From Sphingomonas sp. (GTDB lineage: Bacteria > Pseudomonadota > Alphaproteobacteria > Sphingomonadales > Sphingomonadaceae), in contig PAOI01000032.1 in the NCBI GenBank assembly GCA_002707985.1, positions 1-36,686 of the forward strand: a stretch of DNA of 36,686 nucleotides, read 5' to 3'. Under the pieces are notes generated by a model. The model saw only the letters and a list, made by a program, of their open reading frames with translations. It had not been told where the DNA came from and did no database searches. Positions within the stretch are counted from its first letter, which is position 1. Each line of letters starts with the position of its first letter. Shown piece after piece: positions 26,387 to 30,064 of the stretch. A program made the translations under genes and the position numbers.

Positions 26387-27169
26387 ATGGCCACCGCGCC
26401 CACGCAGTCGCTTCCGCTTTTCTACAACGACCTTGCACCGCTTTCGAGCCAGGAACATGCCGATTTCCGCGTCCGCCGCAGCGATCGCGCGCCGTTCGTC
26501 GTCGGTCAGCACGCCATTCCGGTGACGGTCGAGGAATTTCCGCTGGTCCAGCGGCACATGCCGATCGTCTTTTCGGCGGGCGACAATTCGGTGCCGCTGG
26601 CGCTGATGGGGCTGAACGAAGGCGTCAATGTCTTCTTCGACGATGAAGGCACGCTGACCGAAAAGCAGCTCTACATCCCGGCCTATATCCGCCGCTATCC
26701 GTTCATGCTCGCCCGGCTGCGCCCGGACAGCGAGGAACTGTCGCTCTGCTTCGATCCCAGCACTGACACCATCGGTGCGTTCGAAGAAGGCGAAAAGCTG
26801 TTCGACGAGGGCCAGCCGAGCGACGTCACCAAATCGGTGCTGTCGTTCAACGAACAGTTCGAACAGGCGGGGCTGCGCACCGGCCAGTTCATGAAGGAAC
26901 TGAAGGAACTCGGCATCCTGATGGACGGCGAAGTCTCGATCCAGCCGGAGGGCGCGCCGCAGCCCTTCATCTATCGCGGTTTCCAGATGATCGATGAGAA
27001 AAAGCTCAACGAACTGCGCGGCGATCAGCTTCGCAAGATCGTGCAGAACGGCATGCTGCCGCTGATCTATGCGCATCTCTTCTCGCTGGCGCTGATGCGT
27101 GAAATCTTCGGCCGCCAGGTCGCGCTCGGCAAGTCGCCGCAGCCGACGATGCAAGAGCCCGCAAACTGA
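26387..27169 (+). CDS. SapC family protein
   Basis: This 260-residue protein belongs to the SapC family, named for a gene near S-layer loci in Campylobacter. The features visible are PLFYNDLAPLSSQEHADFRV, PVTVEEFPLVQRHMPIVFSA, a YIPAYIRRYPFMLAR block and FDEGQPSDVTKSVLSFNEQF. AGGAG precedes the ATG at 26387. No membrane segment or signal peptide is evident, so it is probably cytoplasmic. In many sphingomonads and Caulobacter relatives SapC lies beside TonB receptors and tryptophan halogenase-like genes; here it sits between a flavoprotein and cytochrome b561. Its biochemical function is unknown. Confidence 0.92.
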   Translation: MATAPTQSLPLFYNDLAPLSSQEHADFRVRRSDRAPFVVGQHAIPVTVEEFPLVQRHMPIVFSAGDNSVPLALMGLNEGVNVFFDDEGTLTEKQLYIPAYIRRYPFMLARLRPDSEELSLCFDPSTDTIGAFEEGEKLFDEGQPSDVTKSVLSFNEQFEQAGLRTGQFMKELKELGILMDGEVSIQPEGAPQPFIYRGFQMIDEKKLNELRGDQLRKIVQNGMLPLIYAHLFSLALMREIFGRQVALGKSPQPTMQEPAN

Positions 27170-27179
27170 AGGAACGGCA

Positions 27180-27710
27180 ATGGCGACCACCGATAGCGAC
27201 CGTTATGACCGCGTAGCGATTTCGTTTCACTGGGTGATCGCCCTGCTGGTGATTGCCAATGTGATCATCGGGCTGTTTCACGAATCATTGTTCGATCCGC
27301 GTCAGGTCATGCCGATTCACAAATCGATCGGCATGACCGTGCTGATCCTCAGCATCGGCAGGTTGTTCTGGCGGCTGGGACATCGTGCCCCGCCGTTGCC
27401 GCCCGAACTGCCGTCATGGGAGAAGATGGCGGCCAAAGCGATGCATGGGCTGCTTTATGCGCTGATCCTGCTGCTGCCGTTGACGGGATGGGCGATGTCG
27501 TCCGATCCGGAGCGGCCGCGGCCGATCAGCTGGTTCGGCCTTTTCGATTTCCCGATCCTGCCCACCGGCAAGGCGATTGCCGGGTTCTCGCACGAAGCGC
27601 ATGAGATTCTCGGGCTGTTGATGGCGGCGCTGGTCGTCATCCACATCGCAGCGGCGCTGCGGCACCATTTCCTCCTGCGCGACCGGGTGCTTACGCGCAT
27701 GCTGCGCTAA
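27180..27710 (+). CDS. Cytochrome b561 family membrane protein
   Basis: This 176-residue four-helix membrane protein carries candidate heme ligands in SFHWVIALL, PIHKSIGM, AMHGLLYAL, EAHEILGLL and VVIHIAAAL. It may shuttle electrons from ubiquinol, for example to relieve superoxide. GAAGGA precedes the ATG at 27180, 10 bp after the SapC stop, so co-transcription is likely. The stop at 27710 is followed by the AT-rich control region of the small RNA gene. Confidence 0.9.
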   Translation: MATTDSDRYDRVAISFHWVIALLVIANVIIGLFHESLFDPRQVMPIHKSIGMTVLILSIGRLFWRLGHRAPPLPPELPSWEKMAAKAMHGLLYALILLLPLTGWAMSSDPERPRPISWFGLFDFPILPTGKAIAGFSHEAHEILGLLMAALVVIHIAAALRHHFLLRDRVLTRMLR

Positions 27711-27715
27711 GCGAT

Positions 27716-27751
27716 GATGAACAAATATTCATCTTGCAGAACAAATATTTG
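27716..27751. promoter_or_regulatory. AT-rich repeats and palindromes upstream of the small RNA
   Basis: GAACAAATATT occurs twice, at 27719-27729 and 27739-27749, with starts 20 bp (about two helical turns) apart. The first lies within GATGAA-N6-TTCATC (27716-27733) and the second overlaps the perfect palindrome CAAATATTTG (27742-27751). The region is unlike its GC-rich neighbours and ends about 20 bp before the sRNA -35 box, so a transcription-factor site for the sRNA is plausible. Confidence 0.45.
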
Positions 27752-27769
27752 CGTCTGCATTTGTACGTC

Positions 27770-27798
27770 TTGAAGCGGTCTGCACACTGACCTATATT
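27770..27798 (+). promoter_or_regulatory. Sigma-70 promoter of the small RNA
   Basis: TTGAAG (27770-27775) and TATATT (27793-27798) are separated by exactly 17 nt. This is among the best promoter matches in the window and predicts a start near 27805. Confidence 0.75.
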
Positions 27799-27804
27799 GC
27801 TTGG

Positions 27805-27911
27805 GTACGGGCTCGTGTTCCCCCTTTCGCGAGTACGTGCGGCACGCCTTCGGGCGTGTCTCCTCCCTGAACCTTGGCCACCTCGCGCAGCTTGCGCGAG
27901 GTGGTTTTTTA
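27805..27911 (+). ncRNA. Small regulatory RNA, MmgR/SuhB (alpha-r8)-like
   Basis: The transcript of about 107 nt has three parts. A first weak hairpin is followed by the stem CACGCC-TTCG-GGCGTG (27843-27858). An unpaired CTCCTCCC (27860-27867) then leads to a long terminator stem of 11 bp (27878-27888 with 27894-27904) followed by six T. The anti-Shine-Dalgarno-like CTCCTCCCTGAAC segment between two hairpins fits my recollection of the alpha-r8 family (mmgR in Sinorhizobium, suhB in Rfam), which has Sphingopyxis members. Such RNAs bind ribosome-binding sites through that segment, usually with Hfq. The U-tract overlaps the stop codon of the convergent amidohydrolase. Confidence 0.8.
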
Positions 27912-28754
27912 TTCGGCGGCCAGCGCGCGCGGCGCGATTTCGTCGCCGATGGCATCGATCATCGCGCGCAACATGGCGCTGATCCGGACCGCTCCCGGTC
28001 CGGGCTGGTCGAGCTGACCGTCCAGATACAGCGTGCGATCGATTTCGATCTGGATCGCATGGACGCCGCTTCGCGGATCGCCATGGCGATTGAGGATATG
28101 CCCGCCCGGATAGGGGCTGTTGACGGCGCTGGCGATGTCATGCGCGCGGGCAACGCGCTCCAGCCGCGATACCATGCGCGACCCGGCGGATTTGCCGAAA
28201 CGGTCGCCGAAAACCAGCCTCGGCGCTTCGGCCACCGGGCCCAGCGGCGGCATCGAATGCACGTCGATCAGCACCGCCACGCCGAAACGGTTCCGCGCCG
28301 CCTCCAGCGCCTGCGACAATGCCTGGTGATAGGGGCGGTGGTCCGATGCGATCCGCGCGCGCACTTCGTCGTCGGACAGCCGCCGCCGCCAGATATCGCT
28401 GTTGGACGCCCGGCGCGGCACCAGCCCCAATCCGCTGCGCAGCTTCGCCGACAGCGGGCGGCCGTTGCCGCGCGCGCCGTCGTCGAGCCGCGGGTCGCGT
28501 TCGTCCTCCGCGCGGTTCAGGTCGATCCAAGCACGCGCGCGCCGCGCGACGATCAGCGTTTCGTCACGCCGGGCAGCCAGCGCGATCGAATCGACATGCC
28601 GATCCTCAAGCGCGCGCAGCGATTCGAGCGGCACCCGGATCGCCGCGCGCAGCGCCAGCGGATAGTCGCGCCCCGCATGCGGCACCGACAGCACGATCGG
28701 GCTGTCCGGCTCGGCAGGGCCATGTCGTTCGAAGGACGCAGGCTCGTTCACCAT
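27909..28754 (-). CDS. N-formylglutamate amidohydrolase family protein
   Basis: This 281-residue member of the HutG-type amidohydrolase family removes formyl groups from N-formylglutamate or related amides. Visible features are PIVLSVPHAGRDYP at the start, RAWIDLNRAEDERDPR, VAVLIDVHSMPP, and PYPGGHILNRHGDPRSGVHAIQIEIDR; His/Asp/Glu in these are likely zinc ligands. The ATG at 28754 was chosen because it directly precedes the conserved N-terminus, and the open frame beyond overlaps cpdR. It is divergent from cpdR; this pair is conserved side by side in several alphaproteobacteria. Its stop codon lies in the sRNA terminator tail. Confidence 0.92.
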   Translation of the reverse strand: MVNEPASFERHGPAEPDSPIVLSVPHAGRDYPLALRAAIRVPLESLRALEDRHVDSIALAARRDETLIVARRARAWIDLNRAEDERDPRLDDGARGNGRPLSAKLRSGLGLVPRRASNSDIWRRRLSDDEVRARIASDHRPYHQALSQALEAARNRFGVAVLIDVHSMPPLGPVAEAPRLVFGDRFGKSAGSRMVSRLERVARAHDIASAVNSPYPGGHILNRHGDPRSGVHAIQIEIDRTLYLDGQLDQPGPGAVRISAMLRAMIDAIGDEIAPRALAAE

Positions 28755-28862
28755 AGGATGGGTATAACCGGGACAGGCTGCGGACAAGCATCGCCGTACA
28801 TGGCTGGAAAATGTTAAGCCCTTCCCGCATATTGTACCGGGGATTTCGGTTTCGGGGTTAGG

Positions 28863-29240
28863 ATGATCAAGATATTGCTGGCAGAGGATGATCGCGTGAT
28901 GCGCGAATATCTGACCCGCGCGCTCGAGCGATCGGGATATGCCGTGTCCGCAGTGGATCGCGGTACGGCGGCGCTGCCTCTGCTCGAACAGGAACGATTC
29001 GACCTGCTGCTCAGCGATATCGTGATGCCCGAAATGGACGGGATCGAACTGGCCCAGCGCGCCGCCGATCTGGCGCCGGACATGCGGGTCATGTTCATCA
29101 CCGGCTTCGCCGCGGTAACGCTGAAGGCCGGGAAACAGGTGCCGCAGGCCCGCGTGCTTTCCAAGCCGTTCCACCTGCGCGATCTGGTGCTGGAAGTCGA
29201 CCGGATGTTCGAAGCCGAGAGCGTCCCTAGCAGGAACTGA
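28863..29240 (+). CDS. cpdR: Single-domain response regulator CpdR
   Basis: This 125-residue receiver domain has no output domain. The acidic pocket is Glu8-Asp9-Asp10, the phospho-acceptor is Asp52 in LLLSDIVMPEMDGIELAQRAA, and Thr80 lies in FITGFAAV with Lys101 in VLSKPFHLRDLV. This pattern is that of CpdR. In Caulobacter, unphosphorylated CpdR primes ClpXP to degrade cell-cycle substrates and the CckA-ChpT phosphorelay inactivates it. GGGGTTAGG precedes the ATG. Co-location with the amidohydrolase supports the identity; clpA elsewhere in the window is a different Clp partner. Confidence 0.94.
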   Translation: MIKILLAEDDRVMREYLTRALERSGYAVSAVDRGTAALPLLEQERFDLLLSDIVMPEMDGIELAQRAADLAPDMRVMFITGFAAVTLKAGKQVPQARVLSKPFHLRDLVLEVDRMFEAESVPSRN

Positions 29241-29260
29241 ATTTTTGCCGTCGCTTTCGC

Positions 29261-29289
29261 TTGCACCGGCGCAAAGCACTCGTTAAAGC
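29261..29289 (+). promoter_or_regulatory. Candidate promoter of the tRNA-Val gene
   Basis: TTGCAC (29261-29266) and TAAAGC (29284-29289) are 17 nt apart and end 13 bp before the tRNA. The fit is moderate; the location supports it. Confidence 0.45.
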
Positions 29290-29302
29290 GCGCGGCTCTC
29301 GG

Positions 29303-29377
29303 GGGCGTGTAGCTCAGTGGTAGAGCACTGTGTTGACATCGCAGGGGTCGCAAGTTCAATCCTTGCCACGCCCACCA
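29303..29377 (+). tRNA. tRNA-Val, anticodon GAC
   Basis: The 75 nt include an encoded CCA. The acceptor arms GGGCGTG (29303-29309) and CACGCCC (29367-29373) pair fully. The anticodon stem CTGTG/CGCAG encloses the loop TTGACAT with GAC at 29335-29337. The T arm GCAAG-TTCAATC-CTTGC is intact. GAC reads the valine codons GUC and GUU. Confidence 0.97.
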
Positions 29378-29381
29378 TTTC

Positions 29382-29422
29382 AAAAGGCTCGCCGTTCCGG
29401 ATCGGATCGGCGGGCCTTTTTT
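29382..29422 (+). terminator. Intrinsic terminator of tRNA-Val
   Basis: AAAAGGCTCGCCG (29382-29394) pairs with CGGCGGGCCTTTT (29408-29420), 13 bp with one G-U pair and a 13-nt loop, and ends in six T. The A-run on the other side may let it serve the convergent TetR gene too. Confidence 0.85.
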
Positions 29423-29443
29423 GATTCGCGGCTTCGGCGCGTT

Positions 29444-30064
29444 TCACGCCGGAGAAACAGGGCCGTCCGACAGGGGGCGGCTGCCGCGCCGCGCCAGATC
29501 GGCGAGCAGCGTTTCGATCGCCCAACGCGCGGCGACTGCGATGTCGTCGCCCTTCATATCCCATTGGTCGCGCATTTCGCGCCAGGCAAAGCCGCTGCCG
29601 ATCAACTGGATCGCCGCGATTGCCCATCGCCGGTCCGGCTCGGGAAGATAGGCAGTGGCTTCGGACAACATCCCGCGGAACGCCGCGACGCGATCCGGCT
29701 TCATCAGGTTGCGCGCCGCGCGTCCTTCGGCGCTTGCCATCAGCACCGTCATCGCCGCTTCATGCTGGTCGAACTTGCGGAATCGCTCGGCCATACCGTC
29801 CAGCAGCGCGTCGAGCGTGGTCGGCATGCCGCCCGGCGGGCTCATCTTGCGCCAGATGGCGGCGCGCAGTGCATCCTGATCGGGGAAATAGCGATAGACG
29901 GTGCGGCGCGACACACCCGCACGTTCCGCGACCGCATCGTGATTGGTGACAGCCGCTTCGGCGGTAAGCGCCAGAAGCGCGTCCTCGATCCGCTCGCGGG
30001 TCGCCTTGTTATGAGAGGTACGCTGCGGTTTGGCAGGGTCTTCGAGCAAGAATTTACGGGCCAT
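29444..30064 (-). CDS. TetR-family transcriptional regulator
   Basis: This 206-residue repressor has an N-terminal helix-turn-helix (VAERAGVSRRTVYRYFPDQDALRAAI, about residues 46-71) and a helical ligand-binding domain without recognisable ligand clues. The ATG at 30064 was chosen over an upstream in-frame start at 30115, which would overlap the operators. Two identical 11-bp palindromes lie 22-57 bp upstream, covering the region shared with the divergent promoter. It therefore probably represses itself and the divergent VOC-like gene. The inducer is unknown. Confidence 0.9.
   Translation of the reverse strand: MARKFLLEDPAKPQRTSHNKATRERIEDALLALTAEAAVTNHDAVAERAGVSRRTVYRYFPDQDALRAAIWRKMSPPGGMPTTLDALLDGMAERFRKFDQHEAAMTVLMASAEGRAARNLMKPDRVAAFRGMLSEATAYLPEPDRRWAIAAIQLIGSGFAWREMRDQWDMKGDDIAVAARWAIETLLADLARRGSRPLSDGPVSPA

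Follow-up and report, generated by a model that had tools for sequence, protein, structure and literature searches.

A predicted αr8 small RNA beside the N-formylglutamate amidohydrolase gene of Sphingomonas, with a C-rich 5′ hairpin loop typical of Sphingomonadaceae

The closest described relatives of the RNA presented here belong to the αr8 family of small RNAs (Rfam RF00519, mmgR/suhB). In most species αr8 is present as one copy next to the gene for N-formylglutamate amidohydrolase (FGase), which is where sisA of Caulobacter crescentus is located (PMC12559287). SisA uses UUUCCUCCCU and represses TonB-dependent receptors, its pairing with one TonB-receptor mRNA having been proven by compensatory mutations (PMC12559287). 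MmgR of Sinorhizobium meliloti, also αr8, is a 77-nt, Hfq-dependent RNA (PMC8401924, PMC7143759) with three stem-loops and an anti-Shine-Dalgarno motif within the first loop (PMC7143759, which also names NfeR1), while SuhB of Sphingopyxis granuli TFA, which shares the Rfam name and a sphingomonad host with our RNA, is 61 nt long and represses thnR with Hfq (PMC6563040). For Sphingomonas itself, we found no paper on an FGase-linked αr8 sRNA in the open-licence literature, and a term search of the main texts of two Zymomonas sRNA papers (PMC7064620, PMC6970203) returned none of suhB, mmgR or formylglutamate.

We analysed a stretch of 36,686 nucleotides from Sphingomonas sp. (contig PAOI01000032.1 of assembly GCA_002707985.1; hereafter the window), for which a preliminary description had proposed an sRNA gene with a near-ideal promoter, an unpaired anti-Shine-Dalgarno segment flanked by two hairpins, and a strong terminator. 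Judged by its anatomy, the locus looks like a complete and real sRNA gene at 27805–27911 on the plus strand, with the following features.

27770–27775, plus strand: −35 box TTGAAG (a script detected TTG[ACT]A in 28 of 30 relatives)
27793–27798, plus strand: −10 box TATATT after a spacer of 17 (promoter scan and alignment of relatives' promoters)
27805–27911, plus strand: predicted sRNA transcript of about 105–107 nt (folding, conservation, covariation)
27805–27840, plus strand: hairpin H1, 12 bp in the window copy (double changes in 8 of 13 consensus pairs)
27818–27827, plus strand: H1 apical loop UUCCCCCUUU, 10 nt, fully unpaired in the fold; candidate second seed
27841–27860, plus strand: hairpin H2 (double changes in 6 of 8 pairs; 100% of cells paired)
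27859–27868, plus strand: UCUCCUCCCU, equivalent of the αr8 10-mer, with 9 of the 10 letters of UUUCCUCCCU
27861–27875, plus strand: single-stranded UCCUCCCUGAACCUU, the main putative anti-Shine-Dalgarno seed (85–100% unpaired)
27876–27910, plus strand: intrinsic terminator with a 14-pair stem, 3-nt loop and T-run (double changes in 7 of 13 consensus pairs)
27180–27710, plus strand: cytochrome b561 (PF01292), upstream neighbour, not found beside some relatives' copies
27909–28754, minus strand: FGase (PF05013, E 6.7e-60), convergent neighbour

The predicted RNA thus has three hairpins, with two segments that are unpaired and C-rich. Its promoter, TTGAAG-17-TATATT (27770–27798), is the sole promoter-like site in 26500–29500, where shuffled sequences held a mean of 0.6, and this promoter together with the base of H1 would place the transcription start at G27805. 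Folding 27806–27911 gave −54.1 kcal/mol (z −5.23), with none of 200 shuffles equally good, and the terminator stem (27876–27906, 14 pairs) is by far the strongest of three terminator-like sites found, such sites not being rare per se (mean 2.1 in shuffles). With its T-run, this stem forms the Rho-independent terminator that characterizes αr8 RNAs, and the T-run (27905–27910) overlaps the FGase stop codon (27909–27911). Within UCUCCUCCCU, a near rather than exact match to UUUCCUCCCU, the first two bases fall inside H2 and the last 8 are unpaired. The preliminary description was therefore borne out on promoter, unpaired segment and terminator, as well as on the location between cytochrome b561 and amidohydrolase and on the terminator tail lying over the amidohydrolase stop codon; its seed and the two hairpins flanking it are likewise there, but the total is three, H1 having gone unlisted. 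Further along the window, a tRNA gene (29303–29374) lies downstream of a single-domain response regulator (Pfam Response_reg) that we take to be CpdR-like, and four relatives' loci (L003, L007, L010, L025) show a similar spacing of the tRNA.

Evaluating the element across genomes, we found a DNA match in 34 of 37 genus genomes (the misses being G007, G015 and G019), and a single match, 35 nt long, among 24 genomes from the order's other families. The 30 fetched genus loci were aligned, best matches first and none dropped, and 97.2% of cells pair in these copies, against 33–55% when slid. Changes on both sides were seen among the 30 relatives in 21 of the 34 pairs, giving 107 double-change cells against a shuffled mean of 30.3. 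While the stems vary, CUCCUCCCUGAACCU is invariant in all 30 copies, UCCUCCCUGAACCUU is invariant with the exception of its last base, and the H1 loop, which reads UCCCCCCUUU in most of the aligned relatives, is nearly so. Among the matches listed, loci with the same pattern and organism names were mostly from Sphingomonas, and the FGase of Sphingosinithalassobacter portus FM6 (now Stakelama portus, Sphingomonadaceae) has 97% identity to the window FGase, again among the matches listed.

Turning to family, the RNA had been described beforehand as MmgR/SuhB-like, with an Rfam covariance scan set as the test. That scan did return a match, aligned weakly across the full model (1–77 of 77), at 31.6 bits against a cut-off of 41, which is a curated score threshold and no biological feature. 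Across the whole window the tRNA alone reached its Rfam cut-off, and for mmgR/suhB none of 17 sphingomonad loci of the FGase-linked type passed. Since 12 or 13 of 14 control genomes likewise gave mmgR/suhB matches at an E-value limit of 1, the direct score taken alone lends weak support. A covariance model built from the genus copies only, without Rfam sequences (R1; short calibration, rough E-values), matched in 195 of 247 genomes of the order (52 without a match) and in 49 of 289 genomes drawn from the class, 4 of the 49 being from the window organism's own family. When 20 loci chosen from 26 class-wide R1 loci were given to Rfam, 19 carried an mmgR/suhB match at or above the cut-off in the same place (all but L098), and R1 thereby bridges the hairpin-seed-terminator core to accepted αr8 members. 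The genomic linkage of αr8 is also present: 29 of 30 genus loci have a convergent FGase next to the sRNA, and FGase adjoins it as well in 31 of 32 loci of a further sphingomonad set (L053–L084, of which four share genomes with the 30) and in 16 of the 26 class-wide loci. Given the bridging by R1 (19/20) and the FGase linkage (29/30), we file the predicted RNA as a probable Sphingomonadaceae αr8 RNA, so that the family name first proposed is retained despite the missed Rfam threshold. Gene anatomy in sequence, conservation, covariation, family relationship and synteny are established by the computation. Separately, one genus copy (L030, in G024) has a further CTCCTCCC 81 nt downstream.

A C-rich anti-Shine-Dalgarno seed of the CCUCCUCCC type is found in the αr14/NfeR1 and cuckoo RNAs, a likeness to the window RNA. 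The αr14 model (RF02344) gave no Rfam match on 27700–27960 at E up to 10, and one relative (L076) scored 32.8 bits against a cut-off of 58.8.

Set beside the described members, the window RNA resembles SisA in its FGase linkage and in its order of a hairpin, an unpaired CCUCCCU and a Rho-independent terminator, and differs in that UCUCCUCCCU replaces SisA's UUUCCUCCCU and in the added 5′ hairpin with a C-rich loop (PMC12559287 for SisA). With MmgR it shares the RF00519 core (at the sub-threshold score given above), but it is about 30 nt longer, and the 77 positions of the Rfam model do not include its C-run 5′ hairpin. A count of three hairpins is no novelty in itself, since MmgR is described with three stem-loops (PMC7143759). 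Two further RNAs of the window genome (G000), L041 at C6:26994–27065 and L042 at C38:14563–14638, pass the Rfam cut-off; they have the core CAUCCUCUCCUAARMCUUUC with GCACTTGCAC-like words upstream, no C-run hairpin before the core (by reading), and no FGase match within about 1.5 kb. These two form a second αr8 class in this genome. Because both exceed the Rfam cut-off, they may be the RNAs to which the published SuhB role belongs, and SuhB of Sphingopyxis granuli may correspond to this class and not to the FGase-linked RNA.

For the window RNA we consider it very probable that it is the FGase-linked Sphingomonadaceae αr8 ortholog, an RNA of about 105 nt with its own promoter that would act as an Hfq-aided repressor covering the ribosome-binding sites of uptake or carbon mRNAs. 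Transcription from the sigma-70-like promoter would yield an RNA of that length ending at the Rho-independent terminator, and the unpaired UCCUCCCUGAACC, with Hfq, would most likely pair with G-rich ribosome-binding sites of mRNAs and block their translation. By analogy, the targets are most likely mRNAs for outer-membrane uptake (TonB-dependent receptors) and for carbon metabolism or storage. Transcription, Hfq dependence, repression and target type are here carried over from relatives, and the best-supported mode is that of SisA, in which an Hfq-associated RNA covers G-rich ribosome-binding sites with its CCUCCCU stretch.

Targets within the window itself, of which many had been suggested earlier, found no backing and were set aside, as sites like GGGAGGAG with at most one mismatch numbered 19 against 28 expected and the sole exact GGGAGGAG match came from the sRNA's own antisense strand. 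For the H1 loop, complements with at most two mismatches numbered 23 in the window against 15.6 expected, with 7 of 100 shuffles as high, and no signal was counted.

The plug domain of TonB receptors had between 20 and 43 matches in each of five sphingomonad genomes examined. We compared receptor starts with other gene starts in seven genomes (the window genome, G021, G010, G063, G268, G040 and G312). Gene calls relied on a codon score devised for the purpose, starts were picked by best pairing to a 16S tail, and the receptor sets were the higher-scoring matches, namely 30 of 43 in the window genome, 15 of 31 in G021, 15 of 27 in G010, 15 of 20 in G063, 15 of 38 in G268 (one gave no start), 15 of 36 in G040 and 21 of 53 in G312. 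The duplex energy of the core was lower at receptor starts in five of the seven genomes (p<0.05; 7e-4 in the window genome), with p values of 0.056 in G063 and 0.1 in G010, all p-values of this comparison being uncorrected and genes of a paralogous family not being independent. The 16S anti-Shine-Dalgarno sequence also pairs better with receptor starts in four of the seven genomes (p<0.05), so part of the target signal reflects strong Shine-Dalgarno sequences. Control of receptor mRNAs by a sphingomonad αr8 RNA is plausible.

Beyond the core, we evaluated the C-rich loop of H1. By script, CCCC stands in the upstream hairpin loop in 30/30 and 18/18 genus loci and in 39 of 46 loci belonging to Sphingomonadaceae outside the genus, the remaining 7 comprising five with CCC loops (UCCCUCAU-like) and two with long C-runs missed by the script's fold; among loci of other families, such a loop occurs in 1 of 10 from the same order and 1 of 24 from across the class. 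With a looser rule, CCCC at any point 20–70 nt before the core, the counts became 30/30, 18/18, 40/46, 3/10 and 2/24. The 10 same-order loci are a selected set (L032, with its C-run in another hairpin, and L265, at the same place as L040, were omitted; L037 and L038 are of the second αr8 class), 24 class loci were counted after two of the 26 yielded no core, and R1, which includes the H1 loop, leans towards loop-bearing matches, although it still recovered class-wide loci without the loop. Because two loci of family f6 (L034, L036) have clear C-run hairpins, the loop is typical of Sphingomonadaceae, yet not confined to it. In one sphingomonad αr8 copy (L260), H2 is seemingly lost and the C-rich-loop hairpin directly precedes a UCUUCCCUGAACC core. 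We take the C-rich 5′ hairpin loop to be an addition typical of Sphingomonadaceae αr8 RNAs that may serve as a second seed, and it may already have been described in the αr8 phylogeny (Lagares 2016) or the SuhB study (Garcia-Romero 2018).

In the fullest form of that idea, the H1 loop UCCCCCCUUU would be a second, independent seed for TonB-dependent receptor mRNAs, making the RNA a dual-seed αr8, a possibility that we take seriously while leaning against it. The family-wide distribution of the loop speaks for it, set against which are the C-run hairpins of f6 and the CCCC found upstream of the core in other families under the looser count. The receptor starts pull in both directions as well. 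TonB-dependent receptor genes of the window genome (L356–L385), G021, G010 and G312 have GGGG in the ribosome-binding region more commonly than the other genes sampled. For the three genomes of the genus, the counts, receptor versus other starts, are 21/30 vs 15/66 in the window genome, 9/15 vs 10/56 in G021 and 7/15 vs 2/19 in G010, and in G268 the pairing energy of the H1 loop is lower at receptor starts (p 0.006), all of which would fit a second seed. Against this, the outgroup G312, whose R1-type copy has no C-rich loop, is equally enriched (10/21 vs 6/49, loop energy p 0.003), the sphingomonad G063, which has a UCCCCUCAU loop, shows no enrichment (3/15 vs 9/29), and the GGGG counts are non-significant in G268 (3/14 vs 1/22) and G040 (3/15 vs 4/27). 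GGGG was absent from all six receptor starts used in G047 (6 of 32 matches, without controls). As proof of a second seed, receptor ribosome-binding sites were promising in the window genome and G021, were negative in G040 and were weakened by G312 and G063, and we do not retain them as such.

Reading the open reading frames behind individual sites gave a similar division. In the window genome, receptors are 4 of the 7 distinct ORFs (at least 60 aa) behind AAAGGGGG-N-ATG, each with a PF07715 match, against 0 of 5 ORFs (by eye) behind the control AAAGGAGG-N-ATG, whereas receptor-like ORFs among relatives were 4 of 45 (named by eye, with no family scan). No gene behind AAAGGGGG-N-ATG recurred in many of 10 relatives whose ORFs were read (all sites in seven; three loci each in G002, G023 and G026), and a genus-wide conserved target set of this kind was rejected; two receptor genes behind such sites recur in G011, the nearest relative, only. 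Extending the dual-seed idea further, Sphingomonadaceae would have made αr8 a two-seed RNA (CUCCUCCC plus a hairpin-borne C-run), its C-run recognizing G-run ribosome-binding sites on TonB-dependent receptor mRNAs, so that a single RNA would govern much of outer-membrane uptake, with receptor sites and loop co-evolving, which we regard as speculative and rather unlikely.

We also weighed whether a sponge RNA or a protein might dock at the H1 loop, comparable to CrfA acting on the αr8 10-mer in Caulobacter, with the loop then being no mRNA seed. SisA is sponged by CrfA (PMC12559287), and the near invariance of the loop and of its closing pairs (CGUG/CGCG) would fit one fixed partner, but other Sphingomonadaceae genera carry a different H1 loop (e.g., CUCCCCUCAUGG), so that such a partner would need to co-vary, and we judge this role improbable. 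More improbable by far is that the convergent sRNA serves as a 3′-overlap cis regulator acting mainly on FGase mRNA: the overlap of the T-run with the FGase stop codon and the adjacency of FGase at nearly all genus loci invite this reading, yet the overlap spans only a few bases, trans-acting sRNAs typically have such conserved unpaired stretches, and L030 retains the sRNA with no FGase match within about 1.5 kb. That the element is a chance terminator hairpin in C-rich DNA and no sRNA at all can practically be dismissed, for while the genome is GC-rich and near matches to the core complement are about as frequent in the window as chance, this reading runs against the covariation, the near-invariant unpaired stretches, the conserved promoter and the synteny.

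Returning to the FGase-linked αr8 ortholog as the preferred reading, the predicted RNA appears to be a true representative of a known family of sRNAs, one that the family model missed in Sphingomonadaceae, with a C-rich H1 loop in addition. An FGase-linked αr8 locus is thereby placed in Sphingomonadaceae, where Rfam called none of the scanned loci, and the outcome is a covariance model for the Sphingomonadaceae branch together with two candidate seeds that can be mutated separately. With these, it can be tested directly whether αr8 RNAs govern the receptor repertoire beyond Caulobacter.
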